From positions 1 to 40,033 of IMG/VR virus record IMGVR_UViG_3300048104_000827: 40,033 bases of DNA. The stretch is one strand, 5' to 3'. The stretch comes from a virus. Below, piece by piece: positions 116 to 35,281 of the stretch. Under the pieces are notes generated by a model. That model was not told the DNA's origin, made no database searches, and saw nothing but the letters and a program-made list of their open reading frames with translations. A program made the translations under genes and the position numbers. Every line of letters starts with the position of its first letter. The first letter of the stretch is position 1.

Positions 116-3100
116 ATGGCAGGTATTAGGGCACAGTTAAATTTAGAAGTAAACTCCGACAAGGTTAAAAGAAGTTTACAAAAAGCAACCAGTGAAATTA
201 ACAAAATAGTTAATAAAACTGCTGGTAAACAAGTTGGCTTCAATGTTAACGAGAAAAGCTTTACTCAACCTCTCGGTAGAATTAATGCATCCGCCAATGA
301 GTTTAGTAAATCACTAGAAGCTTCTAATGCTCGGGTTATAGCCTTCGGGGCTTCTGTAGCGATTATAGATGGAATATCTGACGCTTTTAAGAATTTAGTG
401 ATACAGGCGGTCAACTTCGAGAAAACGTTAGCAGATATTAACGCAGTAATGAGTTTGTCTAATAGCCAGCTAGAGGCTTTTGGTTCAAATTTATTCGAGG
501 CGGCTAAAAGCACAGCTCAAGGTTTTAATGTCGCAGCTGAAGCCGCCTTAGAGTTCTCTAGGCAAGGCTTATCTACAGAAGAGGTTATTAGGCGCACAAA
601 TGACGCTTTAATCCTTACTAGGTTGACTAGTTTAAAAGCTACCGATGCTGTGTCAGGATTAACCGCTGCGATCAATGCTTTTGGTGGAGCTGGGCTTAGC
701 ACTACTGATATTATAGATAAATTATCCGCTGTTGATGTTAATTTTGCAGTTAGCTCCGCTGACTTAATTAATGCTCTGCAGAGGTCCGGGGCTGTTGCTA
801 TTGACGCTGGAGTGGAATTAGATAAATTAATCGGTATTGTTGCGGCATTGCAACAAACCACGGCCAGAGGCGGGGCAGTGATTGGTAATAGTTTAAAAAC
901 TATTTTTACAAGAATACAAAGACCCGAGTCAATAAAGCAAATTGAAAATCTTGGAATAGTTGTAAGAGACTTAAGCGGCGCTGTTCTGCCTGCTGATAAG
1001 ATCTTGGTAAATATGGCTAACTCTTTCGACGAATTAACTCAGGCGCAACAATCAAATGTTGTTCAGTTTTCAGCAGGAATTTTTCAAGCCAACGTTTTTA
1101 GGGCAGCACTTGCCGATTTAGCTAAAGAAAATAGTCTAACAACAAAAGCTACAGAAATATCTGCAAATGCATCCGGGGAAGCTGCAAGAAAAAATGAAAT
1201 TTTAAATCAAACCATTTCCGCAATGTCCTCAAGAGCGGCTACTAGCTTACAAGAGCTTGCGGCTGTTATGGGAGAGCTGGGATTAAGTGATTCAATTGGC
1301 ACGGCTTTAGAGTTTGTTAATGATAGGGTCTCTGAAATAAAGGATGGCTTAGGAGGAGGGGAGGCAGAAGGTAGTGATTTCGCGAAAGGGCTAGTGCGGG
1401 GTATTGGTAATGTTTTAACTGGTCCAGGTGTTATAGCTTTTGGCGCTATTTTTATAAAGCTATTTTTTAATATAGCTAAATTCGCCCAAAGCTCCATGAA
1501 GGATGTTTTGGGGATAGTTAATCGCAAAGAACAACTTCGACAAATGGAAGAATCTATAGTTAGGGTGATGGGGGAAAATGCGAATATCCAGCAAGCCTTA
1601 AATAACTTAGAGGGAGACCGAGCGTCTCAAGAAGCTTTCATTTTGGGTATTATAGAAAGGCAAACTAACGCACTACAAAAGCAAAAAGCACTAGCAAGAG
1701 ATCTTTCTTCAACTTTGCTAAACAAGGGGGTGTCGACTGATCTCACATATCAAACCAAGGGTTCGGAAATGGTAGATCTAGACGGCAATGGAAAACCTGA
1801 CCTTCCATATACTGCTAGAGGTCTTTTGCCGGAGCAAAAACTATCAGAGAGGGTAGGCGCGCTTAGAGCTGGTTACACTCCAGGAGAAGTAGCCACAACG
1901 AACATTAAAGGGCTGGGTCAAGTTATATATAACAAAGCAGAGACAATAAAACAATTCCCAGGCATGGAGCAACCCGCAATTATGCCGCCCAAACAAAGTA
2001 AAGCTGGCGGAAAGTATTCAGAAAAATTTCAGGAAAAGCATGGCTTTGATCCATATGCAAGTCAGGGTTTTGTGCCTAACTTTGCTTCTTTAATGGGACA
2101 TAAGCTAGTAATGAATAAGTCTAAGTTTAAACTTTTTGGGAACTCTAAAGACCTAGGATCTGCTATAGGGGAAAAATGGATGGATATAGAGGAGAAAATA
2201 AAAAACAAAGCCCCAGTCACAATAAACTCAAGTTTAAATAAAATTATCAACTCCTCTAGTGACAACAGCAACAAAGCTCCTACAAAAAAAGAGCGTTTAT
2301 ATAAAACCTTCGTGTCTCTTGCCAGTGCTGGAGTTAGGTCGATTGAGAGAGACTTTGATGTACGACCTATTCCTAAAACCAGAAATACAAAACAACTCAA
2401 AGGCGAAAACTCAGCCCAGTTTGCAGAGAGAAGGGTGATAAACCAACTAAACCAGGAGCAACAATTAAATAAAGATCAAGGGTTGGATCATTCTAAATAC
2501 ATTGCAACCAGAGACCCTGTGACAAAAAAGGGGGTAGCGACTTACCCTATTGATACGATAGCTCTCGGCCAAAGCTTCCCTTCTTATGAAGTAAAATCTG
2601 GAGAACTAATTGCCGCAAATTTAATATCGAAAAGCTTAAGGATGGCCTCCGATACAGAACTAGAAGATTGGATGAAGTCTCAAGGTATGATAAAAAAAGA
2701 CCTGGGCGAAAGAAATTTATCTGCTGCCCAAAGATTGGCCCAAAAATTAGGTATAAAAGGAACAGGGGAGGGTGAAGAATTCACTCAAGAAGACGCAGAA
2801 GAATGGGGAATGAATAAGGGTTTCATTCCTAACTTTAAAAAATTATATAGAGGCACATCGGGATACCCGGGATCAAGAGCTACCAATGTGGCTGGAGCAT
2901 ACTGGGATAATCCAGTAAATCTATATAAGGATGTAATTCAAAGATCCATGCAAGCCACGGATGAACTTCAGGCAAAAGCTCCTACTGTATTCAAAAACAA
3001 AATGACTTACGGAGTAGATGAATATAATATAAATGATTCATTGTTTAATCAATTGAGCACAGGGGTATATAAAGCTCAAAATGTAATTAAGTTAAAAAAG

Positions 3101-6100
3101 TTTGTTGATAATTTTGATCTGGATGACATTAGGCATAGCGATGGAATTGATGAGGATTTCTATGATGGTGCTCAAGAAGAAAGAGGCCGAGCGATTGATA
3201 GCATGAAAAAACAAAAGGGTTCCAAAAAAATACCAGGAACCGCATCAAACCCATTGCCATTAATACAAGAACTAAGAAAAGGAGTATATAGTTTTCCTGA
3301 TTTAGGGCGAGGTAGTGAATATAGGGACAGCTTACTTAAGAGGGATGAAGACCAAATAGAGAATCTTTTCGACTGGAAAAAAACAGGCGGAAGAAAACTG
3401 AACCCAGAGTTTCAAAATAATAGAGGCTTTTTTGAGGGTGTGAGCGGTCATGGTGGCGATAAAGCTCTTAGGGGCAGTATGTTTGGTGGTAAGGCTGGCT
3501 TAAGGCAGGCCATGGAATCAAGCGCTGGATTAATACCAAACTTTGGGGCTCAGGGCAGTGGCAGAGGGCGCAACTGGAAAGAAGCTTATGAAAACTTAAT
3601 AAAATTGTATAATGATGGAAAAATAAACAGTGCGCTAGATATCAGCAATGCAATGGGAATAACAAAGGGAGTATTATCAAACTATGCATTAGATAAAACG
3701 CAGAAAAAGGCTAATGGGAAGGAGTATCGTTACGCGACGGGAATGATCAATGAAATAGGTCAAGACGGATACGAAGAATTCCAAAGAATTTATGATGAGT
3801 TTGTTATAAAAAATATAGCTAATAAAAAATTCTCAGAAGGTCGAGACTATGAGGCTTTGATTGGTTGGTTAATAGGGCAATCACCTGGATATAATTCAAG
3901 GCTTGATTGGACTGGAGCAAGAACCGTAATAAGACCTCCCGAGGGTTCGAAATTAAATATTTCAGATTATATTGGAAATAGTAAACGACGTATAGCTGCA
4001 GAAACACTTGCTAAGAAAAGCTTTGATGCTCAACAGGGGGCTGGGCACAACCATGGTGTGTTATACGACAAAATAACTGACGGTTTAAACTTGAGCCCAA
4101 AGCCTGGAGAGCCTTTTGATACTAGAGAGTCATTATTTAGGGAGATAGTTCAAGATGGTCCAGGAGTAGATCCAGTAAGCAAACAGCATAAGATGAAGGT
4201 CTTAGGTGGTGCTTATTTTAAGTATACCAAAGACACGTTCCAACCAACAAAAAAAGTTCTAAACGCGTGGGAAAATCATAAAACGAAGTCAAGTGGCATT
4301 AATAGCGATGGATTATCCCACGATGGTTTCGTCCCAAACTTTCATTACTGGCAAAAATTTATCAAATGGTCTAAAGGTCCAAATGGCTGGGGTCTTAGGG
4401 GAGATGATTTTACTTTAACAGATTTTGCTAATTATTTACAAAACCATACGGACACCAACCCACAAGAGATTGCAAAAATAAATAAACAAATTCAAGGGTT
4501 TAAAGCAAAGGCAAGTAAAGACCTAAAGGGTCTTGGCGGCCCATCTATGGGGAGGGAGGGTGCTAAACATTATGCGTCAAGATCTGCGATTCAAGACAGA
4601 AAGGGCACGATTGATTTAAATGGTATTTTTATTAAAAACCTTAAAGACAAGGTTGATAAGTATAACAGCGGCAGAAGTTTAGGTTCCTTTAGTGATGCAT
4701 CAAGCGGCCTCATTCCAAACTTTGCAGATATAATTCCTTTTGATAATACCACTCCTTTTAAGAAGAAAACAATCAAGTCAAAAAACTTGATGCATCAAGA
4801 ATACTTGAAGGCATATGCTGAAGGCGAGAATCAATTCAAATCAGGACAAACTATGCTGCAGTTTTTGTCTCAGTTTTATGACCCTAAGACTTTACAAGAC
4901 CTTCGAAAATACCCCGAAGATTATAACATATTATCCGAAGGATTTATTCCTAATTTTTCAAGGGGGCCTGTGCCTAACTTCGCCAATCCGTTAATGGATG
5001 CGATCAACAGAGAAAGATCTGCGGGTTTGCCTGACTCAAAAATTAGAGTAGAAAAAAGCCCTCAATTAAAGAGTCCAAAAAACCCAATGGGTTTAGCGGT
5101 GACAAATACACGTGATGAGCCAGGGGGCGTGCAACAAGGCATTAGTAGAGCAAGAAAAATGGGAATCAACCCAAAAGAGCATGGAGCTGCTCATGGTTTA
5201 GTGCCTAATTTTGTTATGGGTATCGCGGGTACAGAAAGCTATGGGCAGGGGTCTTTAAAAAAACCAAAGTTGAGAGGCCCATCTGCTGGTTTTGAAAACG
5301 TGACAAAAAGTCTAAAAAGTTTAAATAACGAAGTAGACGATTTAACCGACAAGATAAATAACCAACAAGAATCAATAAATTCTGAGACTGAGGCTAGAGA
5401 CAACTCTCAATCAGCGCAAATAGATGGGTTGCAAAAACTATTTTATATGCAGTCAACTATTAGTATGGCAAACGGATTTTTGCAACAATTCGCAGAAACT
5501 GGAACTGGGGCGGCCAAACAGCTTGCTGAGTTTAGCCTTGGTTTAAGCGATACATTATCTACATTTATAACTGCAAAAGAAGTTGGAAATCAATTAATGG
5601 ATCTTGCTGACATTAAACCAGAAGAAGGGGTGGGTATACAAGAAATTATTGGATCAAAAAGAGTCAAAGACTTATCGTCAGGAAAAGGTCTATCGGCCAC
5701 TGTATCAAAGGCGATGGGTGGGGTTATGAATTTTGGCAAGGGATTACTTAGGTTTGCTCCCCTGATCGGTCAGGCTGTTACAGCGTTCACCGCAGTAAAT
5801 AGCGCAGTAAAGCAATTTGGTCATTTACTTGGGTTTGAGCAGGGGGCCGGGATAATGGATTTATTTTCTAGCGCCTCAGAAAGAGCGACTAGAAGCATAG
5901 AAAGGTTGTCTAAATCAACAGAGGCTCTTGAAAACACCTTAGGTGCGTTACAATCACAATCAGAGAACACAGAAAAAATACAAGAACTTGAATCTATGGG
6001 GAGCTTGAGAACCCAAAAACAAGAAGCAGAATTGTTCAAATTAAAAATGAAAGATTTGGATATTCAGACTAAAGTTCAAAAATCTATGTCTCAACTTTTT

Positions 6101-9100
6101 GAGAAGAATGTTGTGGGTAGCGCGATAGCAGGACAATTAAGCGAGCAATTTTCACAAAGCGGGATCACTGTAGAAGAGCAAACCAGCACATTACAAAAAT
6201 TAATTAAAGTACAAAAACAAAGAATTGCAATAGAGCAAGGCACGGAAGCATTTGGAAAATTAATTCAGGAAAAATTCAACGACCTCACAAGTGGCTTTGA
6301 TTTCAGTACAATTAGCGGGCAAGACGCTAAGCTTCTTCAGCAAGCATCTGGCTTTAGGGGTGCTCAAGCAGGGATGGCGTTAAGCGGCGTTATGGCTGGA
6401 GGGGAAGAATTAGATGCAAAAGAAAGGCTAAATATTTTATCGGAAAATATTAGTGTAGTTGGTCAGTTTGATTTAAATAAAATAACTGAAAGCTCGGTCC
6501 GCAGTATTCGAGAAACGTTATCAAGCCAACTTAAAGGAACTAAAGAATTCGGAGGAGCGCTAATAGCAAGTCACATTGCAGACATTATTGATACAATTGA
6601 TGATGCAGAAGACAATGTGTCGGGCTTTCAAAAAGTAGAAGCCAAAGCTATAAAGCATGCTCTTGATGCTTTTGTCACCCAGCTTAAAAAACAAAAAAAT
6701 AAGCTAGAGAAATCTGACGCCGCAGAAGATTTTGAACAGAGCACTAAACAAGTTAGAGACGCCTATGTAAGAATCATAGCGGAATACAAAAATCAGAGAC
6801 AACAATTAATTCATCAAAACTCTATATCAGATAAAATTAATTCGACTCAAAGAAAGATCCTAGAATCTACTGACGGAATCTTGGCTCAATACGGTGGGAT
6901 TTCAAGTGATTTTGAAATTAGGCAAAAAACAGAAAGGGAACTTGCGAGCATAAATGAAAAATATAAATCAGCGGTAGATAAATACAACGTAGAATCATTA
7001 AAGGGGATGCAAAAAACTGCAGAAAGTTTAATAAATACTGGACAGCTCGCTCAAGATTTTACATTAGGAATGGAAAGGTCAAAGGAAGCCGTAAAAAAAC
7101 TTGCTTCAAACTTATCAACAGGAGTTAATCTTGATCAATTATCTTCTATTGTAAATAGGTTGGGGGTTGATTTGTCTTCAGCCCAATCAATTAAGCTTGA
7201 TGAGTTATTTTTAAAAATTGCAAGCGAAGCAAGCTCGATGAAGGATAACGGGGAGGTTGTTAATGCATTAATGAAGGAATACGGAAAAATTCTTGATCCA
7301 ACTGTTGCCGCTGCATTCTTAGTAGCATTAAATGAAAAGAAAATAGCCGGTCTTCAGGAGAAAGATATCCAAGCGTTATCAGAACGAGTTAAAAACCACG
7401 AAAGATCAGTAGAAAGCGCGAAAGTAGACCAAGAAACTAGTCAAAAAATACTAAAGCAAAAAGAGATTCAAGAGTTAATACAAAAAAAGACTGTCGATGG
7501 AGCTATAAACTTAGAGAAATTATTATCTAAGCAGGGCGACTTTTCCAGCAAAGCCTTGAAAGAAATACAGGGCGAAGCTGCGACATTAAAAGTATTAAAT
7601 AAATTTCAAAAAGATAGAGTTTCAATTTTAATTAGGAGTGGAAAGCTTGATGAAAAAGCAAGAGAACTACAAATTGAAAAAAACAGAAAAGAGGCAGAGT
7701 CATCAATTCTATCTCTTAAACAGCTAGAAGCTCAACAAGTCATTTTAAACACTCAAAACCAAAGTTCTGAAGAGTATCAAAATATCATAAGAGCCCAACA
7801 AGCCAAACTTAAACAGGAAGTAGTTTCCGCTAAATTATCTCAAGAAGAAGCAAAAGCAAGAGAGGAATTCCTTTCCTATGAAGATACTAGAAAAAGATTA
7901 GCTCAAGCTCAAATAGAAACAGAGCAATCTAACGCCAACACGGCATCATCAATCAATTTGACAAAATTACAACTAGAGGTTGCTCAGAAAAAACTTCTAG
8001 AAAATGTAATGACTCAAATAGAAGAAGAAATCACATCCGCACAAAAAAGCGCCTTAATATCCGCCAAAAAAGTGTCAATACTTAAAGCTTCCAGCAAGCA
8101 GTCAAAACTATTGCAAAAAGCCAACGAACTGCAAGAAGCCTCTAATAAATACCTAGAACTGGAGAACGCTATAAGAAAAGCTACAATCAGTAAAGGTAGT
8201 TTAGACATCAATGCACAGGCAGATATAAACACAGAAAAAGCTAACAAGATTTCATCTATCAGAGAAAATATAGCAAGAAATAAAATTTTAGCAAATACAG
8301 AAGAATTATCGTCTTTATCTAAACTCGAAATCGAAGAAGAATTACAGTCCACCCAAGGGTCAGCTTTAATAGCGTCTGAAAAAGCCATAATACTTTCAGA
8401 AATGGGCGAACAGGGAAGGCTTTTAAAACAGGCAAACGAACTACAGGCGTCTGCAAATAAATTAATTGAATTAGAAAACGCAATCAGAAAAGCTACGATT
8501 AGTAATGCTGAGTTAAGTTTATCAGTTGGAGCCCAGGTGGGCATTGATAGGGCAGCGTCTGTTGCTGGAACGAGGGCTGCTGCGGCAAGGTCATTAACAA
8601 CAGGAAGACCTGAGGATGCATTGGCTTTTGCTCAAAGCCTGGAAGAAACTAATAAACAGCTTGGAATAGGAAGTAGAACACTTGATAGATTGCGAACAAG
8701 GATAGCAGAAATAAACGTATCCTGGGAAAACCTAGGCGCAGACCTTGTAGATATAGGTCTAGATTCAGCGAGAAGTGGGGTTCAGAAAGTATTTGAAGAG
8801 ATCGGCTCTGGAGCCAAAACAGCAGAGCAAGCGTGGAATGATTTTGGTTTAAATCTAGCCAAGCAATTGCTAGACAGGTTCACACAGGCAAATGTAGACA
8901 GAATATTTGCTAATTTGGCTTACGCTTTTACAGGGGTTGACCCAACTAAGGACGCCGCAAAAGTAGCTAATCAAAACGGACCTTTGGTTCTAGCAATAGA
9001 AGGTTTAAGCGGTCAGAAAGATAGTCTAGCTAGAGCCACTAAAGGCTTACAGGCAGAATTGAGGTCTGGCATTAATATAAGAGCAGATAAAATCGATACA

Positions 9101-11716
9101 TCTTTATCTAAACAAGCCGAAGTTTTAACTGAACCTTTACGTTTATTACGTAATAAAATAGAAGATTTGACGAAGGCAGTGCTAAGAGATGTTGAGTCAC
9201 GAGTGGTAAAAGATAGTAAGGAGGGCGATGCTCCAGACCTCTCTGGACCAGCGGCCTTGAATATACGCGAAGATAAACAAAAAGCTTTCGAAAGCAAGCA
9301 AAAATCTCAAGCTAAGGGTCGATCAAGCGCGCTCTCTAACAAATTATCCCAAGAATTTAGCGAAATAGATTCTAGTATTCCTTTGAGACCCTTGCAGGAT
9401 GTGACAAGCAATGTATCTAAATATTCGCAAAAGGCGCAAGAGCAAGAAAGTATAACCAACCCAATAGATTTATTAAGCAAAGAAAAAAAAGAAGATATCG
9501 TGGCTGCAATGTCTGTTAGGTTTAAAAACCATGAACCAACTTATAGCGCTGATGTTTTTAACCGAAACGCAAAAGGGTTTGTAGATTCCACAGCTTATCA
9601 AGAACCGATGGTTCCTCCAAACGCAGGATATGAGATCTTTAGACCTTTAAATCATATATTTCCTAATGACGAACCGACGGTAGGAAACAGAAGTTTAGAG
9701 GAAGCTGCTCAATCATCTGGTTTGGCATCTTCAGAAGCCGCACAATTAAGCAATTTAAATGAAGCATATTTGGGATTAAACAAACTAAACGAAAGTCTTT
9801 TAGATTTAAAATACGCGACAGAAGAAACTCCTGTCAAAGATTTAGCCTTAAAGGATCTTGATTCTGACCTTAATAATCTCGTTGTGTCTGCTACTGGAGC
9901 TAGTCTTCCGATACAGGGAGTGAAACAAGCCATTGTGATGTTAGCTGACACGATGAAAGCTAAAGCTAAAGAAATACAAAACTTGATGAACTCTATGGGT
10001 CTTTCTACTTCGCCTCCACCTGATCAGGGAACTAGTTCACCTGATAGTAAGCATTTTGGAGGAATGGTACAAAAATTTGCGAAAGGAGGGTTTGTTAAGG
10101 GTCCGCGCGGGGAAGATAAGGTCCCGGCAATGTTAACCGCCGGAGAATATGTAATACCAAAAGAAAGAGTAAAACAACTAGCCCAAAGAGACGAGTTGCA
10201 GTATTTATATAAAGGCGGAGGGGTGAAAGCTCAATACACAAACAACGCAGAATCAGATAGATTTGTCGCAGGAATTAAAGGGGCAACCCAAGCAGCTACT
10301 ATGGCCATAGTTACTGACAAGCTCGGCGACTCAATCAATAAAAAACAAGACACACCACCGACGTTCAATAAGCAAAAACTAAAAAATCTAGATTTAGGAT
10401 CAGATGTTAGTTTAAGAAGTGGAGATCCTAGATTAAGTGGGAAAGCATTAGCTCGTGATCCAGCTATGGCCGAATACAGAGATTACTTAATGGATTTAGC
10501 CGCCTACAGAAATCAAAAGAAAAATGAAAAATTTCAAAAAAGAATGGGTGTTTTTAGTTCGATATTAAGTTCGGTTCATTCTTTGGTACTTGGAGAAGTT
10601 ACAGAAATAGCAAAGGAACCTATCAATAAATACGTAGTAAACCCGATAAAGAATGCAGCTTCATCAGTTGCAACAAAAGCCGATAATTGGAGGGGTAAAA
10701 CTTTTGGAAAATATTCAAAACAATACGAAACAGCTTCAAATCTTGCAGACCAAAAAGGCTACGATTTAAACTATAAAGATTTTAGAAACTCAATGGATGG
10801 GTACAAGGGAGAGTTAAAGGATTTAGGTTTTTATGCGGATCAAGGGGGGATAAAATTTTTAAGCCCAACAAGTGGTGAGGTGTATGACATGAATTCTTTA
10901 GAATCTATACGCAGTATGCCGACTTCAGACCAAATGATGGTTTATCGCTCTAAAGCTTTAATAAACCCTCATAACAGAAGCATTACTATGGATCAGTTTG
11001 TAAAGCAAGATTCTGCTTTTTACAACAACCAGCGGCTTGATACAGAGAGCAGAAATAAATATACCAAAGCCGCCCGAAGGGCTTCTGGGGGTTCAATTCC
11101 GACAATGCTAACAGACGGAGAAGCTATCATACCTTCTGAAATAGCAAAAAGAATAGGTTATTCTAGTCTAACTAAAATGAATAAGACTGGCGAAATACCT
11201 ATTGTATCTGGAAAAAAAGGAATCGATAAAGTTGGGCCTGTTGGATTAACACCTGGAGATTTTGTAATACGCAAAAGCTCAACAGATAAATTACTAAAAG
11301 AAAACCCCCGCATGATGAGGTTTGCAATGCAAAACCCAGATGGGTTCAGAAAAGCAGAGCAAAGATATTATCAAGGTGGCATAGTGGGGACCTCTGGTTC
11401 AAGCGTTCAAGTTCCAAGCGTAAATCAAACTACAGGTACAGGCTCAAGAACGACCAGTCAACCTATAAATAGAATACAGCCATTAATATCATCAAGCCAA
11501 CAAAATGCCCCGCAGAAAATTCAACAACAAGCAAAGAACGACGTAACAAACAATATAAACGTAAGCGTAACGGTTGATCAATCTGGAAACGAAAAAGTTT
11601 CTAACGAGGCGGGTGGTAATAAATTCGAGCAAGAGCAGGCCCTTGCAATGAAAATAAAAACAAAGGTGATTGAAGTTATAAGAGAAGAGAAGAGAATAGG
11701 CGGAGAGCTTGGATAA
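116..11716 (+). CDS. Phage tail tape measure protein (TP901 type) with inserted VPNF-motif modules
   Basis: This protein sets tail length and is packed inside the tail tube. At 3866 residues it is several times longer than lambda gpH (about 850). Residues about 80-290 match the TP901 tape measure core (motifs such as FEKTLADINAVMS and TARGGAVIGNSLKTIF). A hydrophobic helix lies at about 433-458. Residues 651-1700 are atypical: eight G-x-[IV]-PNF motifs (651, 902, 1138, 1404, 1531, 1609, 1617, 1694) separate unrelated-looking modules, the first with a PD-(D/E)XK-like signature (E771, D813, E825-V-K827). Residues about 1720-2900 are mostly coiled coil and include a 104-residue-period duplication (from 2635 and 2739). 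The C-terminal part carries three copies of a P-x-M-L-T-x-G-E-x-[IV]-I-type motif (near 3330, 3660, 3700), common in tape measure proteins. AAGGA just upstream supports the ATG. The stop overlaps the next start (TAATG). Confidence 0.96.
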   Translation: MAGIRAQLNLEVNSDKVKRSLQKATSEINKIVNKTAGKQVGFNVNEKSFTQPLGRINASANEFSKSLEASNARVIAFGASVAIIDGISDAFKNLVIQAVNFEKTLADINAVMSLSNSQLEAFGSNLFEAAKSTAQGFNVAAEAALEFSRQGLSTEEVIRRTNDALILTRLTSLKATDAVSGLTAAINAFGGAGLSTTDIIDKLSAVDVNFAVSSADLINALQRSGAVAIDAGVELDKLIGIVAALQQTTARGGAVIGNSLKTIFTRIQRPESIKQIENLGIVVRDLSGAVLPADKILVNMANSFDELTQAQQSNVVQFSAGIFQANVFRAALADLAKENSLTTKATEISANASGEAARKNEILNQTISAMSSRAATSLQELAAVMGELGLSDSIGTALEFVNDRVSEIKDGLGGGEAEGSDFAKGLVRGIGNVLTGPGVIAFGAIFIKLFFNIAKFAQSSMKDVLGIVNRKEQLRQMEESIVRVMGENANIQQALNNLEGDRASQEAFILGIIERQTNALQKQKALARDLSSTLLNKGVSTDLTYQTKGSEMVDLDGNGKPDLPYTARGLLPEQKLSERVGALRAGYTPGEVATTNIKGLGQVIYNKAETIKQFPGMEQPAIMPPKQSKAGGKYSEKFQEKHGFDPYASQGFVPNFASLMGHKLVMNKSKFKLFGNSKDLGSAIGEKWMDIEEKIKNKAPVTINSSLNKIINSSSDNSNKAPTKKERLYKTFVSLASAGVRSIERDFDVRPIPKTRNTKQLKGENSAQFAERRVINQLNQEQQLNKDQGLDHSKYIATRDPVTKKGVATYPIDTIALGQSFPSYEVKSGELIAANLISKSLRMASDTELEDWMKSQGMIKKDLGERNLSAAQRLAQKLGIKGTGEGEEFTQEDAEEWGMNKGFIPNFKKLYRGTSGYPGSRATNVAGAYWDNPVNLYKDVIQRSMQATDELQAKAPTVFKNKMTYGVDEYNINDSLFNQLSTGVYKAQNVIKLKKFVDNFDLDDIRHSDGIDEDFYDGAQEERGRAIDSMKKQKGSKKIPGTASNPLPLIQELRKGVYSFPDLGRGSEYRDSLLKRDEDQIENLFDWKKTGGRKLNPEFQNNRGFFEGVSGHGGDKALRGSMFGGKAGLRQAMESSAGLIPNFGAQGSGRGRNWKEAYENLIKLYNDGKINSALDISNAMGITKGVLSNYALDKTQKKANGKEYRYATGMINEIGQDGYEEFQRIYDEFVIKNIANKKFSEGRDYEALIGWLIGQSPGYNSRLDWTGARTVIRPPEGSKLNISDYIGNSKRRIAAETLAKKSFDAQQGAGHNHGVLYDKITDGLNLSPKPGEPFDTRESLFREIVQDGPGVDPVSKQHKMKVLGGAYFKYTKDTFQPTKKVLNAWENHKTKSSGINSDGLSHDGFVPNFHYWQKFIKWSKGPNGWGLRGDDFTLTDFANYLQNHTDTNPQEIAKINKQIQGFKAKASKDLKGLGGPSMGREGAKHYASRSAIQDRKGTIDLNGIFIKNLKDKVDKYNSGRSLGSFSDASSGLIPNFADIIPFDNTTPFKKKTIKSKNLMHQEYLKAYAEGENQFKSGQTMLQFLSQFYDPKTLQDLRKYPEDYNILSEGFIPNFSRGPVPNFANPLMDAINRERSAGLPDSKIRVEKSPQLKSPKNPMGLAVTNTRDEPGGVQQGISRARKMGINPKEHGAAHGLVPNFVMGIAGTESYGQGSLKKPKLRGPSAGFENVTKSLKSLNNEVDDLTDKINNQQESINSETEARDNSQSAQIDGLQKLFYMQSTISMANGFLQQFAETGTGAAKQLAEFSLGLSDTLSTFITAKEVGNQLMDLADIKPEEGVGIQEIIGSKRVKDLSSGKGLSATVSKAMGGVMNFGKGLLRFAPLIGQAVTAFTAVNSAVKQFGHLLGFEQGAGIMDLFSSASERATRSIERLSKSTEALENTLGALQSQSENTEKIQELESMGSLRTQKQEAELFKLKMKDLDIQTKVQKSMSQLFEKNVVGSAIAGQLSEQFSQSGITVEEQTSTLQKLIKVQKQRIAIEQGTEAFGKLIQEKFNDLTSGFDFSTISGQDAKLLQQASGFRGAQAGMALSGVMAGGEELDAKERLNILSENISVVGQFDLNKITESSVRSIRETLSSQLKGTKEFGGALIASHIADIIDTIDDAEDNVSGFQKVEAKAIKHALDAFVTQLKKQKNKLEKSDAAEDFEQSTKQVRDAYVRIIAEYKNQRQQLIHQNSISDKINSTQRKILESTDGILAQYGGISSDFEIRQKTERELASINEKYKSAVDKYNVESLKGMQKTAESLINTGQLAQDFTLGMERSKEAVKKLASNLSTGVNLDQLSSIVNRLGVDLSSAQSIKLDELFLKIASEASSMKDNGEVVNALMKEYGKILDPTVAAAFLVALNEKKIAGLQEKDIQALSERVKNHERSVESAKVDQETSQKILKQKEIQELIQKKTVDGAINLEKLLSKQGDFSSKALKEIQGEAATLKVLNKFQKDRVSILIRSGKLDEKARELQIEKNRKEAESSILSLKQLEAQQVILNTQNQSSEEYQNIIRAQQAKLKQEVVSAKLSQEEAKAREEFLSYEDTRKRLAQAQIETEQSNANTASSINLTKLQLEVAQKKLLENVMTQIEEEITSAQKSALISAKKVSILKASSKQSKLLQKANELQEASNKYLELENAIRKATISKGSLDINAQADINTEKANKISSIRENIARNKILANTEELSSLSKLEIEEELQSTQGSALIASEKAIILSEMGEQGRLLKQANELQASANKLIELENAIRKATISNAELSLSVGAQVGIDRAASVAGTRAAAARSLTTGRPEDALAFAQSLEETNKQLGIGSRTLDRLRTRIAEINVSWENLGADLVDIGLDSARSGVQKVFEEIGSGAKTAEQAWNDFGLNLAKQLLDRFTQANVDRIFANLAYAFTGVDPTKDAAKVANQNGPLVLAIEGLSGQKDSLARATKGLQAELRSGINIRADKIDTSLSKQAEVLTEPLRLLRNKIEDLTKAVLRDVESRVVKDSKEGDAPDLSGPAALNIREDKQKAFESKQKSQAKGRSSALSNKLSQEFSEIDSSIPLRPLQDVTSNVSKYSQKAQEQESITNPIDLLSKEKKEDIVAAMSVRFKNHEPTYSADVFNRNAKGFVDSTAYQEPMVPPNAGYEIFRPLNHIFPNDEPTVGNRSLEEAAQSSGLASSEAAQLSNLNEAYLGLNKLNESLLDLKYATEETPVKDLALKDLDSDLNNLVVSATGASLPIQGVKQAIVMLADTMKAKAKEIQNLMNSMGLSTSPPPDQGTSSPDSKHFGGMVQKFAKGGFVKGPRGEDKVPAMLTAGEYVIPKERVKQLAQRDELQYLYKGGGVKAQYTNNAESDRFVAGIKGATQAATMAIVTDKLGDSINKKQDTPPTFNKQKLKNLDLGSDVSLRSGDPRLSGKALARDPAMAEYRDYLMDLAAYRNQKKNEKFQKRMGVFSSILSSVHSLVLGEVTEIAKEPINKYVVNPIKNAASSVATKADNWRGKTFGKYSKQYETASNLADQKGYDLNYKDFRNSMDGYKGELKDLGFYADQGGIKFLSPTSGEVYDMNSLESIRSMPTSDQMMVYRSKALINPHNRSITMDQFVKQDSAFYNNQRLDTESRNKYTKAARRASGGSIPTMLTDGEAIIPSEIAKRIGYSSLTKMNKTGEIPIVSGKKGIDKVGPVGLTPGDFVIRKSSTDKLLKENPRMMRFAMQNPDGFRKAEQRYYQGGIVGTSGSSVQVPSVNQTTGTGSRTTSQPINRIQPLISSSQQNAPQKIQQQAKNDVTNNINVSVTVDQSGNEKVSNEAGGNKFEQEQALAMKIKTKVIEVIREEKRIGGELG
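2066..5215 (+). repeat. Array of eight G-x-[IV]-PNF motifs within the tape measure gene
   Basis: The heptapeptide GFVPNFA and its variants (GFIPNFK, GLIPNFG, GFVPNFH, GLIPNFA, GFIPNFS, GPVPNFA, GLVPNFV) recur in frame, starting at nucleotides 2066, 2819, 3527, 4325, 4706, 4940, 4964 and 5195. Spacings are 251, 236, 266, 127, 78, 8 and 77 residues. The DNA between copies is not repetitive, so this is a protein-level punctuation signal rather than a DNA repeat. I recall similar motifs in large proteins of uncultured marine phages but know of no assigned function. Confidence 0.85.
8018..8539 (+). repeat. Two-copy internal duplication in the tape measure coiled coil
   Basis: About 70 residues beginning IEEEITSAQKSALI (residue 2635) recur as IEEELQSTQGSALI (residue 2739). 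Both copies run through LL-x-x-ANELQ and LENAIRKATIS. The offset is exactly 312 bases (104 residues). The nucleotides have diverged, so the duplication is old. Periodic units of this kind are how tape measure proteins gain or lose length. Confidence 0.8.
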
Positions 11717-25200: not shown

Positions 25201-27552
25201 ACTTGGCCAAACAGAGCTAGGTTTAGAATAAAATACGGTAATGAAGGAGAAAATTTATATTCTACTGATGTATATATTTTTGGGGTAGCAACATCAACAT
25301 ACAGAAAAGACGTAAAAATATATCTCCCACCAAACCCAAATCAAAGAGATAGAATACTAAAGGTATACAAACTCAATAGAGAGAGAAATTTCGTAAAAGA
25401 AGGAGAGCAAGCTGCTAGATATAAAGAGGTGATGTCACTTGCTTCCGTAACAGAAATCACGCCGACTATATTAAATTACGCAGGGTCAGCAGTTGTGGGG
25501 ACAAGGATTAATGCAAAAGATGTACCAAATATACCTGATAGAAATTATCATTTAAGATTAAGAAAAGTGCAAATTCCAACTAACTATAATGCAGAGACTG
25601 GGGTTTATACAGGAAATTGGAATGGGTCCTTTCACCCTGAATTAGCTTGGACTAATAACCCAGCGTGGTGCCTTTATGATTTAATATCCAACAAAAAATT
25701 TGGGGTTGGTAAATTCGGTATCAAAGAAGAAAATATTGATAGGTGGACTTTATATAAAATAGCTAAATATTGCGACGAGTTGGTTTTAACTGGTTATTCG
25801 CCAAAGTATAAAAAGAGAAAATTCATACAAGGATCTTCTGACAAGGTATATTCATTACAAGACAATATAAGTGACAGTCAGTTTGTGTTAGAATTTGGTC
25901 ACATTAATAAAAAACTAGCTATCTTTCATGAAGACGGTACTTATGAGTCGATAAAAATAGTAAAAACTATTAGATCAAATAATAGATTGGTTTTAGACTA
26001 TGAGCCTAAAACGCAAGAGTTTGAAGCAGCGGTATCAATAGATTATCCAATTCTTGAACCAAGATACACATTAAATGCTTTTATAATGAATCAAGATAAT
26101 GCATTTAAGTTGATTAACGAATTCGCTGCTATATTTCGGTCTTATGGTTATTGGTCAGGTGGAGCTATAAATTTCTTCCAAGACGAAAAGAAAGAATCGA
26201 TTATGTTATTTTCTAATAATAATATATCTAATGAAGGTTTTAGTTACTCAAGTACCCCAAAAACATCTAGAACTAATTCTTGTAATATTAAATATATAGA
26301 TAGATACAACATGTATCGACCAAAAATAGAGCACGCCGAAGACAGAGAGGCGATATCAGAAAATAATTATGTAGAGCAAACTATAGATGGGTTTGGAGTA
26401 ACCTCCCAAGCTCAGGCCAAAAGAGCTTCAGAGTTTATTGTAAAGTCGGCTAATTTAGAAACAGAAATTATATCGTTTACGACTAACATGGTGGGTTCTT
26501 ATTTGAAGCCTGGAGATGTAATAGATGTAATAGATAATAAAAGAACAATAGGGAGATTTGCTGGGAAAATTATAGATATAGACATCCATCCAAGAGGAAT
26601 GCTAGCAGAATTAACTTTAGACTACCCTATACATACTTTTATAGACAAAGACGATAAATCGACTTGGAAAAATATAAAGATTTATCAACCAACAGGAAAT
26701 GAAACAATTGAATCATTAGATGGAACACTTGATGTTACTGATAAAAAAATAGACAACATGAGGGTTCAGCAAGTTGGAGAATATTTAGCTTATGACATCT
26801 CAGAAGATAATACGAAAATTAAATTATACAATAATTTATTTGAGTTTATATCTGGTAAGTATGATTGGTATGAAGCTTACCGAGACGCCAGAGCAAGGAC
26901 GGGGCAATTGGCTATTATTGAAGACGAAGATAGTCAGGTCTTAATGCAAAGTATATTGCCTACAGGTGAAATGGCTTGGCTTGGTGGTTTTAACAGAGAA
27001 ATGCCTCCGCCCGAAAAAGTGATATGGCATAATTCAAATCAATGTGGAGATAATATGGTTAAGTATGAAAGCTGGGCATCAGGATACCCTAAATTTGCAG
27101 ACCCATTGGAAACTGATGAAATAAACGAGGAGTATATAATATCTACCGATAGACCCGAAGAAGAGGGCTTTGCAATATCTGCCGATGCATCAGGAAGTTA
27201 TGGTAGCTTTATAGCGACAAGTGGGTCTGATGATGTTTATATACATGGAGACTGGATTCACATGTCTGGAAATATAGAAACGGGATATATTTATGAAAAA
27301 GCCAACATAGGAGGTCTAGAAAGAATTGAAAACTCTGAGGGCACAACTTTTGCTATGGAGGATTCATCTAACTTTGCACAAACAAAGCAGTATAAAGTAA
27401 TAAACATTACCGAAGAAACCAATGGAATATTTAGGATTAACGGACTAGAATATAGTGCAGATAAGTTTGACAATATAGAAAAGAATTTATCAATTAAAAA
27501 ACCAGAAGGGCCGGTTATTTACAACGATAAAAATATATACAATAGAGATTAA
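22261..27552 (+). CDS. Fused tail assembly protein I and host-specificity protein J, with C-type-lectin-like domain
   Basis: The protein has 1763 residues. The first 150 or so correspond to lambda gpI: a ubiquitin-like opening (VILHGELGKLFGKEW, then SPNEAIRAL), a Gly-rich hydrophobic segment (about 82-105) and QQGSTVPLGYGTMKIG. The chain then continues without a stop into gpJ. Hallmarks of J are WTNNPAWCLYDLISNKKFG near 1130 and the tail-hub region about 1260-1430 (LEPRYTLNAFI, then YLKPGDVIDV). Insertions include a CBM5/12-like stretch (about 536-575) and a 95-residue Gly/Ala-rich hydrophobic segment (about 874-968). Residues about 1530-1625 look like a C-type lectin fold (W1536-YEAYRDAR, then W1573-LGGFN and W1605-ASGYP), probably for receptor glycan binding. 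AGGA precedes the ATG. Its stop overlaps the convergent stop of the next gene in TTAA. Confidence 0.9.
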   Translation: MKKVILHGELGKLFGKEWKLNVYSPNEAIRALFANNPNIETYLNKKHQEGVFYGVKKAGEGSFAKQEDYPLATEKDLHIFPVPHGSGGFLGSLVMMAVTTAASIYIQQKISEAMERDDATLQAQTQSYIYNGTQNRYQQGSTVPLGYGTMKIGANVVSSCTINYDYNSEIGKIFGFKNGLYSLIPEYDKNYITDLGPLVSCFALNSFDGSSQFRFVDPAFQYLSEKSVDTKFGSTDGIYGGFEPAEKQKDRFTSVEVKGNAVGGYFYYEYNFAKGVDKRFLGNFSSLGNWYPNLLDMSSAEADDLLLSLEARRFAVSEKNALRSAYVCLQSKPVLETYVGKKIFYPISFIEPDAYPSFLDGTNNKPSYSPGSQSFPTHVGQRWRGTRKSNGIGWFKLESTSIIKSIDLLAEGEIDGFADKNGEKLEFDRNHKTNSSDINKIRNEKDDYLQAIFLDETPVKEVNHQFSDIGGLDSYNINEFDIDVGVNSDGSMGGEDQALLEPQYLFTAHTKEIGAQLFGPRSINQNEFSAMLPSNDFEANKIYHEGEYVTHQDDTYIVNIGFDESFSISGNYYHLTEDQILAEESESLIYIGSEENAQFYAAMPPINEYQVFSGEYVDFENNTFYQDGDKVRCPKANGTMRYCKMGQDAERFIGTYSENKDYNGQRGKLILSEYVLGGPNTKSNLYIITGNDNEIGTPLDQIAAGLSIIGENQFLDYSKDPMYMFLNYQDIEELNDNNEYEVKEITVAEDGSLTESVLYGLTFPEEVVKEEVDISPGGSTDSQEGLWSRIFIQNPKQILDENGNNISDQINVFDIVMDSSIEDSIITRFSEENYISHSIINPLVEQAYVTLQIDELGYVYEGDEVNVSYKIGELWTVFLAIIGIYHAFRVKSTASYGLAAFGVGKGAAGAIPSAAGPFANAGAAAALGFISVHGYAAAGWAGGNATASGALILAVATTILSAVLAGHRFDIGTKIENSGETWPNRARFRIKYGNEGENLYSTDVYIFGVATSTYRKDVKIYLPPNPNQRDRILKVYKLNRERNFVKEGEQAARYKEVMSLASVTEITPTILNYAGSAVVGTRINAKDVPNIPDRNYHLRLRKVQIPTNYNAETGVYTGNWNGSFHPELAWTNNPAWCLYDLISNKKFGVGKFGIKEENIDRWTLYKIAKYCDELVLTGYSPKYKKRKFIQGSSDKVYSLQDNISDSQFVLEFGHINKKLAIFHEDGTYESIKIVKTIRSNNRLVLDYEPKTQEFEAAVSIDYPILEPRYTLNAFIMNQDNAFKLINEFAAIFRSYGYWSGGAINFFQDEKKESIMLFSNNNISNEGFSYSSTPKTSRTNSCNIKYIDRYNMYRPKIEHAEDREAISENNYVEQTIDGFGVTSQAQAKRASEFIVKSANLETEIISFTTNMVGSYLKPGDVIDVIDNKRTIGRFAGKIIDIDIHPRGMLAELTLDYPIHTFIDKDDKSTWKNIKIYQPTGNETIESLDGTLDVTDKKIDNMRVQQVGEYLAYDISEDNTKIKLYNNLFEFISGKYDWYEAYRDARARTGQLAIIEDEDSQVLMQSILPTGEMAWLGGFNREMPPPEKVIWHNSNQCGDNMVKYESWASGYPKFADPLETDEINEEYIISTDRPEEEGFAISADASGSYGSFIATSGSDDVYIHGDWIHMSGNIETGYIYEKANIGGLERIENSEGTTFAMEDSSNFAQTKQYKVINITEETNGIFRINGLEYSADKFDNIEKNLSIKKPEGPVIYNDKNIYNRD

Positions 27553-28349
27553 GAAATCAAACTAAGCATAATCCTTGTTTCTTTAGCTGGTATATCCGAC
27601 CAGTCTTCAGCAGATTTTATTGCATCATTTTGATAAACACCCTCTACTTTATCTTGCCACCATATTTTAATATGTTTTTTTCTGAATTCATCAAAAGAGT
27701 CACAACTTAATATTTCTTTAGCTTTGGTTTCTAGTAAGCTTGTAGGGCTAAGGGGGTTACTTGATGATTTTTTAGAAGAAGATATAGAGTTGGCTGACTC
27801 AGATTTATCTATTTCATCATCTCCAACAATATGAACTTGAAGAAAATTTCTTACGCATCTCACAAACGATCTATTGCAGGCTATTGTTTCTAGGAACTTG
27901 GTGGCAAAACTACTTGTATTATTTAAAGTAGCGTTTGCCATATCTTGAAAAACAACAGGCTTGTCAAAAGTTTCATAGTTGGGGAGAAAGGTCATTGTGC
28001 AAATGACAGCGACATGATCTTCTGCGCATTTAACTACATCATATTTTAAATCTGAAAATCCTCGTAATTTAGCAAGCTCTTTGATTCCGCTTAATTTAAT
28101 AAGAAGCTGGTAATCAGATAAACCATCTATAGATCTAGGCATGTCTTTACCCCTCATTTGAAACCAGCTTTTATTGGGAAATAAATGTTCTTCTTTTACC
28201 ATCTCCCTCCAATTGATAGAGCCGTCTTCGTTAAACGTATATTGAACGTTTTTAAGTAGGCCGTTCTCATCTCTATTGAATAGGTTTGGCCCAAGAGAGT
28301 TGTCTATATTTAGATTACTGACAGGTTCGCTAGTCTTTGTTTTTGGCAT
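27549..28349 (-). CDS. Candidate single-strand annealing protein (ERF/RAD52-like), uncertain
   Basis: The protein has 266 residues and is the last gene of the minus-strand operon, overlapping the upstream gene by 20 bases. The centre (CAEDHVAVICTMTF, FQDMANATLNN, then FLETIACNRSFVRCVRNFL) has a beta-strand/helix pattern. Its helix with regularly spaced Ala, Arg and aromatic residues resembles the conserved helix of phage RAD52/ERF-type annealing proteins. A Ser-rich low-complexity linker (about 185-205) separates a small C-terminal domain, as in many recombinases with a partner-binding tail. SSB is encoded in the same operon, which fits a recombination role. No catalytic motif settles it, so an unrelated DNA-metabolism protein remains possible. 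There is no Shine-Dalgarno sequence at the ATG. Confidence 0.6.
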   Translation of the reverse strand: MPKTKTSEPVSNLNIDNSLGPNLFNRDENGLLKNVQYTFNEDGSINWREMVKEEHLFPNKSWFQMRGKDMPRSIDGLSDYQLLIKLSGIKELAKLRGFSDLKYDVVKCAEDHVAVICTMTFLPNYETFDKPVVFQDMANATLNNTSSFATKFLETIACNRSFVRCVRNFLQVHIVGDDEIDKSESANSISSSKKSSSNPLSPTSLLETKAKEILSCDSFDEFRKKHIKIWWQDKVEGVYQNDAIKSAEDWSDIPAKETRIMLSLIS

Positions 28350-29511
28350 GATTATATATGTTTAAGTGATCAGCTTCTTCCCAGAAATCTTCAGAGTCAA
28401 TAATTTTTTGATACTCATTTGTTTTTTCGATTCCTGCTTTCCATGCTGCTTTGCTATAATACTGTTTATTATTTGATATAAGTGTTTTATTACTGTGATA
28501 ATAAGTATTATTACATAACTCAGACGTAAAGTCAAGATTTTTTTTCTGGGAAGGCAGATATTCCTCAACCGTATAATCAAAATATTTAAATCTTAGTTCA
28601 GATATTTTTTCTAAATTTTTACATATTAATGCGTATTTGATTTGCATTTGATCCAGCGCTTCGAAGTAATTAGTTTCAAAATCTGCATTATCTACAAAAA
28701 TAGTCATTCCTGCTATATTCGATCTGTTGGTATATATATCATTAATGTCTACAGGCCTTGAAATCATTAAGTTTACTCTTCTGGATAACCATGCGCTTAG
28801 AGATTTTGGGCAATCTATATAATCACATCTTAAGTTAATAAGGTTATTGAATGATAATTGATCACTTGGAGTAAAGTCTGGAACTATTTCTATAATATTA
28901 TTATTGTAGTGTTTTCCTATATTTAAAGTTTTGTAATCATGCAAATCATGCTTAATAGATAAATAATCTAAGATCGATTTAGCAACAAGCTCTGGCTTTA
29001 TTTCGTTAATTCTTTTTACACTTTCAGAAAGAGAAAAGGAGGGCTTGGTAGAAGAGAAGTCTGGGCTATATAATTGATAATCTTTTGGGTTACTCCATAT
29101 GGGGTTTGCGTTTTCTTTATAAAGGTTAGAAAAAAGACAAACCATTTTCTTGTTAAAAAAACTAGCCATATGCATAGGTAGGCTATCTATTCCAAAATGC
29201 ATTAGAGAATTCTTTATTACATAAGCCATTTGTTTGTAAGACGCCCCTCTTGTGTCTTCATTACAATCAGAAAACTTAGGATCTTTGGGTCCTCCAATTT
29301 GAACTATGTCGATACCCTCTTCTGATAGGTAATCTTTAATTAAAGAAAATACTACCCCCCAGTGATCGTAATGCTTAGATTGAACTTTTTCTTCGTTTGT
29401 GTGAAAAGTAATATACTTATCGCTTAAAACAGGGTAAAAATGAGGATCTAAATAAGGTTTAGATATCTTGCACCCAAGATTCTTTGCGTATTCTTCAATT
29501 ATGTGAGACAT
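28330..29511 (-). CDS. Protein beginning with a GT9 (heptosyltransferase-like) C-terminal half-domain
   Basis: The protein has 393 residues. Residues 1-150 look like the nucleotide-sugar-binding C-terminal half of a GT9 glycosyltransferase: VVFSLIKDYLSEEGIDIVQIGGP, then a YKQMAYVIKNS helix and GIDSLPMHMASFFNKKMVCLF, corresponding to the family motif G-D-S-x-x-x-H-x-A. The N-terminal Rossmann half normally in front is missing; a matching N-terminal half sits at the end of the GT4 fusion protein two genes upstream. Residues about 190-393 form a second region I do not recognise. The start overlaps the DUF6165 stop in TAATG, so translation is probably coupled. It may transfer a sugar only when paired with the other half. 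Confidence 0.75.
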   Translation of the reverse strand: MSHIIEEYAKNLGCKISKPYLDPHFYPVLSDKYITFHTNEEKVQSKHYDHWGVVFSLIKDYLSEEGIDIVQIGGPKDPKFSDCNEDTRGASYKQMAYVIKNSLMHFGIDSLPMHMASFFNKKMVCLFSNLYKENANPIWSNPKDYQLYSPDFSSTKPSFSLSESVKRINEIKPELVAKSILDYLSIKHDLHDYKTLNIGKHYNNNIIEIVPDFTPSDQLSFNNLINLRCDYIDCPKSLSAWLSRRVNLMISRPVDINDIYTNRSNIAGMTIFVDNADFETNYFEALDQMQIKYALICKNLEKISELRFKYFDYTVEEYLPSQKKNLDFTSELCNNTYYHSNKTLISNNKQYYSKAAWKAGIEKTNEYQKIIDSEDFWEEADHLNIYNHAKNKD

Positions 29512-29897
29512 TAATATTCAGAGTAAGATTTTTGTTCTTGAAATTCTGACCCAGACTCTCTGTTTATTTTATCTTTGATGGAAAATCGCTTGTCGTTCGT
29601 AAAATAAACTGACCTAGCAAGCTCCTGAAATTCTTCGTCAAATTCTTTTGCCCTTTCTTTTTCCCTAATGAGATCCTCTATGTCCCAAAGCTTAGAGTTT
29701 ACATTTACAAGTTCTTTAATTCTTTCTTCTAAGTAATTATATTGACTCAACTCAGACTCTATAATCTGGTTTAAATATTTTTTTTCTTTATTTATGTTTA
29801 AGATTTTTTCTGGATCTTTTATTTTGTTTGATTTAATTTTTAATATAGAGAATTTGTCTAACAATTCACCTACAGAAATTTGGGTGTTAATTTTCAT
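29511..29897 (-). CDS. DUF6165 family protein
   Basis: The protein has 128 residues, full length for the family as I remember it. Its hallmarks are the opening ISVGELLDKFSILKIK, the centre VN-x-x-LWDIEDLIREKE, and the closing ELARSVYFTNDKR and GSEFQEQKSY. It is a helical, charged cytoplasmic protein with no signal or membrane segment. Members are found near glycosyltransferase genes in bacteria, and the function is not known. Here it sits exactly between the two genes carrying the halves of a GT9 fold, overlapping the upstream gene by 11 bases and the downstream gene by one. It could hold the two proteins together, but that is only an inference from position. Confidence 0.85.
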   Translation of the reverse strand: MKINTQISVGELLDKFSILKIKSNKIKDPEKILNINKEKKYLNQIIESELSQYNYLEERIKELVNVNSKLWDIEDLIREKERAKEFDEEFQELARSVYFTNDKRFSIKDKINRESGSEFQEQKSYSEY

Positions 29898-31806: not shown

Positions 31807-32329
31807 CAAATGGTTCAGTATAGGTTTTATCGAATCTATGTTGGTAAATTTTACTTAATAGGTTCTTGAGATAAATAGCTATACATTCAGCCTCGCCGGG
31901 CTCAAGTGAAAGTTTAAAACTAGCCCCACCAGGTTTAGATATAGTAAAACCAAAGGCCGGGACTTTTTGAGAGGATTCTGTAAAATCTTTTGTAGACGGA
32001 TTGTAGCTTTTTAATTTAACAGTTTTATCCCATGGCGTTAGCTTTATAGTAGTCTTATTGTTGGCGTTTTGATGAAAGGTGTTCCACTCGTACCTGTTTT
32101 TCATTGCATTGATTATAGCGCCACACTCAAACTCATTAAACTTAACTGCAACAGTTTTCTCGGGGTTATTTGAATTTCCTTGAAAAGTTCCAGATCCGTT
32201 ATTCCAAGAATATTGAGCAATGGCGTTGACGAATAGAACTGGTTCACCGCTTTTTTTGTCTCTACCTGTTGAGAAAGAGAATCCAAAACCTGTATTGTTT
32301 TTGTTTGGTTTATATATTTGTATACTCAT
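31799..32329 (-). CDS. Candidate ssDNA-binding protein (whirly/PC4-like), uncertain
   Basis: The protein has 176 residues. It opens MSIQIYKPNKNNTGFGFSF, followed by strands VLFVNAIAQYSW and the helix FNEFECGAIINAM. A second, similar strand-helix set (FGFTISKPGGASFKLSL, then EPGEAECIAIYLKNLL) suggests an internal duplication. This layout is like phage proteins annotated as whirly/PC4-type single-stranded-DNA binders, and its operon contains SSB and a sigma factor. No diagnostic residue settles the family. The start forms TAATG with the upstream stop, and the end overlaps the GT4 fusion start by 8 bases. Confidence 0.6.
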   Translation of the reverse strand: MSIQIYKPNKNNTGFGFSFSTGRDKKSGEPVLFVNAIAQYSWNNGSGTFQGNSNNPEKTVAVKFNEFECGAIINAMKNRYEWNTFHQNANNKTTIKLTPWDKTVKLKSYNPSTKDFTESSQKVPAFGFTISKPGGASFKLSLEPGEAECIAIYLKNLLSKIYQHRFDKTYTEPFDD

Positions 32330-32715
32330 TAATTAAAGTCTATTTTTATATGGTTATTTTCAAAGTTTTTTTTCTTTTCTGTGTGGTGTTTTGCTCCACC
32401 TCTTTGTTTGGAATAGTTTTTGTAATACTTTTCCTTCAAGGGGTCTACGCCTCCATTTTGATCGGCCCTCTGCGCGGATAGTTCAGAGCTTTTATCAAGT
32501 AAGTCTCCAACCGTACCTTTCATGTTAGCGGTTTTATTTACAAAATCAGAATTATTCCATGGGTCAATACTGGCTTCAGTTTTTAATTCAGGCAAAGAGT
32601 ATGTTCTTTGCCACTCAACACCATCTTTGTCTATATATTTTTTTTCATCATTCATCCCAAAGAAAACCTCTTTAATTTCCTCAGAATTAGGGTCTTGAAA
32701 TAAATACAGGGGCAT
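32329..32715 (-). CDS. Small protein with FmdB-like N-terminus lacking cysteines
   Basis: The protein has 128 residues. The beginning (MPLYLFQDPNSEEIKEVFFGM, then YIDKDGVEWQRTY) follows the first strands of the FmdB/zinc-ribbon regulatory family, whose start is MPxYxF. There is no cysteine in the whole protein, so the metal site is gone. The rest is hydrophilic, with a basic C-terminal third (KNYSKQRGGAKHHTEKKK) that could contact nucleic acid. One base separates it from the upstream membrane-protein gene. The function is unknown; a small regulatory or virion-associated protein is possible. Confidence 0.65.
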   Translation of the reverse strand: MPLYLFQDPNSEEIKEVFFGMNDEKKYIDKDGVEWQRTYSLPELKTEASIDPWNNSDFVNKTANMKGTVGDLLDKSSELSAQRADQNGGVDPLKEKYYKNYSKQRGGAKHHTEKKKNFENNHIKIDFN

Positions 32716-32716
32716 G

Positions 32717-34276: not shown

Positions 34277-34277
34277 A

Positions 34278-35269: not shown

Positions 35270-35281
35270 GTTGAATTTTAA

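Follow-up and report, generated by a model that had tools for sequence, protein, structure and literature searches.

The tape measure protein and its relatives

The stretch of DNA analysed here (the window) is 40,033 bases long and represents the whole of IMG/VR record IMGVR_UViG_3300048104_000827, which is probably a genome fragment. A gene on the plus strand (positions 116-11716) encodes a protein of 3866 amino acids, in which Pfam placed a PhageMin_Tail domain (PF10145) at residues 134-316 (E=1.4e-22, above cut-off) and which was also matched by seven PHROGs tape measure families. Genes for minor tail proteins and a J-like fibre protein were identified downstream (Pfam, PHROGs). Because of these matches and the tail genes downstream, the open reading frame is, as judged from its sequence, a siphovirus-type tape measure protein (TMP), in agreement with the original prediction of a nuclease signature inside a tape measure. 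The PhageMin_Tail domain is N-terminal, followed by an array of modules (residues 651-1694) and a long C-terminal part, with 2172 residues remaining after the last boundary motif. A conserved hydrophobic segment, GIGNVLTGPxxIAFGAIFI (residues 429-447), precedes the array and is possibly membrane-inserting; 18 of the 21 TMPs described below have it at the corresponding position, and it is absent from L028, L029 and L031. Elsewhere in the window, a block of minus-strand genes (27549-35293) runs opposite to the tail genes and encodes two glycosyltransferases (PHROG 2170) and a sigma-factor-like protein.

Residues 1-428 of the TMP recovered seven related TMPs from IMG/VR when used as a single query and twenty when used as an alignment, with identities of 46-79%. 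Cultured phages have only the TMP domain in common with the window protein, at about 25-30% identity. The set analysed comprised 21 TMPs; relatives on L032-L034 (25% identity) lie outside this set, and contigs L008-L016, L035, L036, L076 and L103 are repeats that add nothing to the counts. The nuclease stretch of L124 is that of L001, and L124 was left out of the count of new copies.

A module array delimited by a conserved motif

The array surrounding the predicted nuclease went unremarked in the original prediction. It is delimited by the motif G-[LFY]-[VI]-P-N-[FY], of which the window TMP contains seven copies, all on the plus strand: GFVPNF (2066-2083, residues 651-656), GFIPNF (2819-2836, residues 902-907), GLIPNF (3527-3544, residue 1138), GFVPNF (4325-4342, residue 1404), GLIPNF (4706-4723, residue 1531), GFIPNF (4940-4957, residue 1609, followed by a degenerate copy GPVPNFA) and GLVPNF (5195-5212, residue 1694), with which the array ends. 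The motif sits at each module junction with almost no linker, and the nuclease module lies between the first GFVPNF and the first GFIPNF copy. Altogether 143 copies were counted in the 21 TMPs versus one elsewhere in the same DNA in six frames. The PN pair was kept in all of them (143/143) and the glycine in 141 of 143; the other positions were L, F or Y, then V or I, then F or Y, usually followed by A. The codons of the motif are mixed while its amino acids are near invariant, so that selection acts on the motif as protein, and for the same reason we rejected the idea that it is a DNA recombination site.

In a wider scan, viral contigs were searched for the codons of GFVPNFA, which gave at least 119 loci. 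Among the matches listed, 84 of 119 loci had an open reading frame with two or more motifs, and wherever the 5' end of such a frame lay inside the locus it also encoded the TMP N-terminal domain (39/39). Part of this domain was still present in 13 of the 45 listed multi-motif frames that were cut at their 5' end. The motif arrangement is therefore tied exclusively to TMPs, and is distributed more widely than the twenty close relatives. Open reading frames with a single motif encoded the domain in 5 of 35 listed cases, and some of these single motifs lie in very short frames and probably represent chance occurrences. Most likely the motif would act as an anchor or hinge for each module along the TMP, or as a processing site.

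A predicted PD-(D/E)XK-type nuclease module

Module 1 spans positions 2081-2821 on the plus strand (residues 656-902), as seen in an alignment of its relatives (A3) and an AlphaFold2 model. The signature had originally been placed at positions 2417-2600 (residues 768-829), an extent that falls within the module but covers only part of it. E771 (2426-2428), D813 (2552-2554) and the E825-V-K827 motif (2588-2596, with E825 at 2588 and K827 at 2594) were located exactly where they had been predicted. A profile built from the first eight nuclease modules (HMM A1) detected the module in 20 of the 21 TMPs; the copies in L025, L026, L028, L029 and L030 are divergent, and L031 has none. The module occupies the first slot of the array in 18 TMPs, the fourth in L027 and the fifth in L025. 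With the window module alone as query we obtained no relatives from viral contigs or 50,697 phage records, and relatives were reached only via the conserved TMP N-terminus. Matches in L017 (Rufibacter) and L018 (Hufsiella) were rejected, being short lipoprotein-like open reading frames that share a YEVKSGELIAPGIP stretch and have no TMP context, and matches to Klebsiella phages (E = 3) were rejected as chance.

Alignment A3 contains 18 of the 20 modules found; two near-duplicates, L007 (97% identity with L005) and L022 (the same as L021), were left out. Pairwise identities range from 13 to 93% with a median of 27%, and from 15 to 53% against the window copy. Only seven columns are invariant (18/18), namely G739, E771, D813, E825, K827, K839 and G902. 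G902 is the glycine of the flanking boundary motif, the other six lie outside the motif. Thus the glutamate in the helix ahead of the first core strand (E771), the aspartate of PD-(D/E)XK (D813) and both charged residues of the (D/E)XK motif (E825, K827), all named before the alignment was made, never change, and neither does the lysine of the following helix (K839 in KSLR, positions 2630-2632). The chance of four residues named beforehand all falling among six invariants of 246 positions is 1.0e-7. The same four residues were kept in L038, L100 and L115, contigs beyond the first set. Values of dN/dS were 0.07-0.23 in eight of eleven pairs, the remaining three having no usable value (one identical pair, two with saturated dS); the nuclease module is therefore under purifying selection.

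AlphaFold2 supplied with A3 gave a model (m80e5fe068a44) with a pLDDT of 87.1 and a pTM of 0.83, and a model from the module's single sequence (pLDDT 39) was discarded. In the retained model a helix (111-132) holds E116, equivalent to E771, and is followed by a strand (140-142); a second strand (159-161) comes directly after D158 (D813), a third (169-172) holds E170 and K172 (E825 and K827), and a helix (178-187, residues 833-842) corresponds to the NLISKSLRM helix that had been read from the sequence beforehand. This order, helix-strand-strand-strand-helix, is that of the first five elements of the PD-(D/E)XK core, with the expected residues well placed. The core order originally proposed is reproduced up to its last element; the strands are short, and the final core strand is not evident in the model. 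Of the two findings named in advance as refuting the prediction, another predicted fold or a lack of conservation of the residues, neither was obtained.

Searches for a named relative gave little. Foldseek returned nothing at E <= 0.001 (best E 1.4 in PDB and 0.65 in BFVD), and VIA-align gave no Z >= 2 among 370 chains, a missing match that does not show that the folds differ. Neither Pfam, PHROGs, PADLOC nor NCBIfam offered a convincing family for the module. Comparison with UPF0102, Mrr_cat and VRR_NUC by hhalign gave probabilities no higher than 8%, for a stretch lying outside the catalytic residues; Mrr_cat and VRR_NUC likewise failed to match each other. The Pfam nuclease toxin family CDI_toxin_EC869_like (E 0.03) was rejected, since its match covers module residues 13-72, off the catalytic residues. 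Phage_ASH, matched by 3 of 18 members (best E 0.00068), was judged a chance hit, as were the NCBIfam and PHROGs matches to the module, and those from NCBIfam and Pfam were weak or off the catalytic stretch. Superfamily membership rests on residues and predicted topology, since neither Foldseek nor profiles nor libraries yielded a named relative. The module shares with the PD-(D/E)XK superfamily the conserved E ... D ... ExK residues and, in the model, the order of the first five helices and strands, and differs from it in having no detectable similarity to any family tested and in its unusual location in a TMP. The assignment as a PD-(D/E)XK-type nuclease is supported by signature, conservation and predicted topology, not by a structural match, and to that extent the original call stands, although no solved PD-(D/E)XK structure was retrieved.

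The missing match to an active nuclease structure would also suit a PD-(D/E)XK-like fold that serves the TMP structurally or in DNA binding, for example by gripping the DNA end or spacing the tail, without cutting. TMPs are structural proteins, and the embedded 114-aa enzymatic motif of the mycobacteriophage TM4 TMP is reported to count towards tail length (PMC1796659). As a 114-aa deletion in the TM4 TMP shortens the tail (PMC1796659), we also dropped the notion that modules cannot count towards tail length. We nevertheless consider a non-cutting module unlikely, because the presumed catalytic residues are constant in modules whose median pair differs at about 73% of positions. The length of the module region also varies almost threefold between TMPs, which would be odd for a fixed spacer: in 14 full-length TMPs it measures 1190 +/- 417 residues (range 670-1935), the N-terminal part 642 +/- 7 and the C-terminal part 2055 +/- 214. 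In L006 and L004, for instance, the module region has 938 and 1755 residues, respectively.

Other modules and their turnover

Splitting the TMPs at the motif gave 122 modules, of which those with at least 25 residues form 32 clusters (BLASTP), the largest merging more than one family. Most modules of the 21 TMPs have no recognisable family. Enzyme-like modules across the family comprise the nuclease, an SNase, and ADP-ribosyltransferase (ART)-like and HAD-like modules; only the nuclease was identified in the window TMP. Module 2 of the window (2837-3526, plus strand, residues 908-1137) belongs to cluster 4, with relatives in L004, L019, L025 and L027. A reading of its 'LYRGTSG' as an ART was dropped, as the YRG is not kept across its five-member cluster. 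Module 3 (3545-4324, plus strand, residues 1144-1403) has relatives in L019, L021 and L001 and weaker ones in L004-L006 (pairwise BLASTP), and its N-terminus looks helix-turn-helix-like by eye.

In L002, Pfam identified an SNase module at residues 870-1066 (locus positions 4266-5606, E 1.3e-5, above cut-off), a second and unrelated nuclease type within a TMP array. ART-like modules (cluster 3) occur in L001, L005, L007, L023, L024, L028 and L029; LYRG and E-x-E were found in all seven and S-x-S in six, a pattern that we take to be that of R-S-E ADP-ribosyltransferases. HAD-like modules (cluster 9) in L004, L006, L007 and L026 all carry YDFDETLA ... DD and are presumably HAD-phosphatase-like. 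Pfam names neither the ART-like nor the HAD-like modules.

Some further patterns were noticed in the arrays. More distant arrays (L085 residues 992-1161, L114 residues 642-946) show an E ... VDA ... FFE[FI]KGG-like pattern and possibly contain further PD-(D/E)XK-type nucleases, and the large modules of L023, L024, L025 and L027 share a D ... EAK ('PLDF ... EAK') near their C end, perhaps marking another nuclease family. Modules in L004 (residues 1628-1878) and L027 (residues 1490-1746) look kinase-like by eye (RDVHSGNF) and had no Pfam match. Cluster 5, a short module ('NGAIY'), occurs twice per array in L025 (adjacent copies, residues 1158-1299) and L001 (residues 1849-1921 and 2153-2226).

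Closely related TMPs differ in module content. The N-terminal backbones of L005, L006 and L007 are 98-99% identical, and in the same flanking motif contexts L005 has an ART-like module, L006 a HAD-like module and L007 both; between motifs, HAD-like modules are gained or lost whole. For L005 and L006 the dS of the nuclease (0.165) is below that of the backbone (0.599), which argues for exchange of the nuclease, and in L004 and L007 the backbone domain is 98% identical while the nuclease is only 64% identical, which argues for its replacement. To judge from these comparisons, the middle of the TMP is made up of modules that are gained, lost and exchanged, separated by the motif.

Such movement raises the question of whether the nuclease itself drives it. 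As a selfish element in the manner of a homing endonuclease, it would cut TMP genes without it or other alleles, spread its neighbours and have no role in the host cell. The modules do exchange and move, and phage nuclease genes are reported at boundaries of exchange (PMC10448857). We regard this explanation as very unlikely, since HAD-like and ART-like modules without the nuclease signature turn over likewise, and what is conserved at the boundaries is the protein sequence and not the DNA, so that a fixed DNA target is lacking there. The presence of the nuclease in 20 of 21 TMPs also leaves few empty sites, and it is translated within a structural protein.

The TMP as a possible effector carrier

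We think it probable that the TMP doubles as a polymorphic carrier of effectors or cargo, with module 1 as a predicted metal-dependent PD-(D/E)XK-type nuclease. In such a protein a constant N-terminal TMP domain (about 640 residues) and the long C-terminal part would flank independently exchanged modules, several of them enzyme-like and each bounded by G-[LFY]-[VI]-P-N-[FY]-A; E771, D813, E825 and K827 would form the putative active site of module 1. TMPs are known to occupy the lumen of the tail and to be expelled from it ahead of the DNA, as two studies discuss (PMC11126660, PMC13277306), so that a module carried within one would arrive at the envelope or in the cytoplasm during entry. Lying in the lumen, the TMP would exit at infection ahead of the DNA and carry its modules along, and the nuclease would fold in the newly entered cell and then cut nucleic acid. 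Candidate targets are host DNA, plasmids, resident or competing phages and the nucleic acid of host defence. Transport in the tail tube and action at entry, which the original prediction had suggested, are what the place of the module in the TMP would lead one to expect. Against the carrier explanation, a folded domain of 247 residues is bulky for a tail lumen. For Sle1, the authors propose that the shape of a globular TMP-like domain may accommodate to the lumen, with folding following once the domain has been ejected (PMC13277306); the nuclease module would have to behave likewise.

The nuclease might also act at entry on the phage's own DNA or on defence nucleic acid, as self-processing or counter-defence, and not on the host genome. 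The module would be positioned just ahead of the entering genome, and host nucleases such as SNIPE act there and reportedly bind TMPs (PMC13190303), so that the TMP would be a suitable vehicle for a counter-measure. As the sequence points to no particular substrate, we see this only as a tentative possibility, though a more realistic one than a selfish or a non-cutting module.

A broader version of the carrier explanation, to which we would give an even chance, is that these proteins form a large undescribed class of TMPs acting as a polymorphic injection platform, in which a constant N-terminal domain and a C-terminal ruler enclose swappable effectors joined by a universal junction motif. The nuclease would take the leading slot, followed by ADP-ribosyltransferases, phosphatases, SNases and other domains, and the junction motif would let the modules pack in the lumen and then be freed or folded in the host.

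Comparison with known systems

Enzymes in phage TMPs (TM4 mt3), a nuclease in a TMP-like effector of a contractile injection system (CIS) (Tme) and injected multi-domain polyvalent proteins are already known. Tme of the Streptomyces davawensis CIS is likewise TMP-related, carries an endonuclease domain and belongs to a tail-like particle, and for Tme activity is reported (PMC11126660). It differs in that it is not a phage TMP and has a single C-terminal nuclease of the EndA type (DRGH, H-N-N) with another fold; it contains DUF4157, whereas PhageMin_Tail is the sole Pfam domain of the window TMP, and the available text describes no repeated boundary motif of the kind present here (PMC11126660). 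The Sle1-type CIS effectors similarly combine a TMP-related delivery backbone with exchangeable functional domains, but these are single C-terminal domains in bacterial CIS, not phage virions, and the accessible part of the study describes no internal array (PMC13277306). Motif mt3 of the TM4 TMP likewise places an enzymatic domain within a phage TMP and aids infection; unlike the module described here it is a peptidoglycan hydrolase aiding DNA entry, not a nuclease, and the text at hand describes no module array (PMC1796659).

Polyvalent proteins recall the predicted domain make-up of this TMP family: a single long protein unites numerous dissimilar domains (ARTs, nucleases, kinases), with mosaic shuffling (PMC5512222). 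Such proteins are proposed to accompany the DNA into the host (PMC5512222), as the window TMP would from its position as a tape measure. They are described as packaged in the head or transferred by conjugation, and the paper nowhere uses the term 'tape measure' (PMC5512222). Zincin peptidases are a common theme among them (PMC5512222), whereas Pfam found none in the TMPs scanned here. In the open-licence PMC literature, outside which lie most subscription papers and all bioRxiv preprints, we came across no account of phage TMPs that contain a nuclease, nor of the motif array, and the strings GFVPNF, GLVPNF, GFIPNF and GLIPNF occurred in none of its papers.

If the carrier explanation is true, the tail would serve to deliver early effectors from a repertoire that changes, in parallel to polymorphic toxins and CIS effectors. 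TM4 mt3 is described as opening the cell wall (PMC1796659); a TMP nuclease among exchangeable modules would be something different, and would place a phage nuclease where host defences such as SNIPE are reported to act (PMC13190303). The conserved junction motif would allow metagenomes to be searched for such cargo by sequence, and would help to ask how folded enzymes pass a tail tube.
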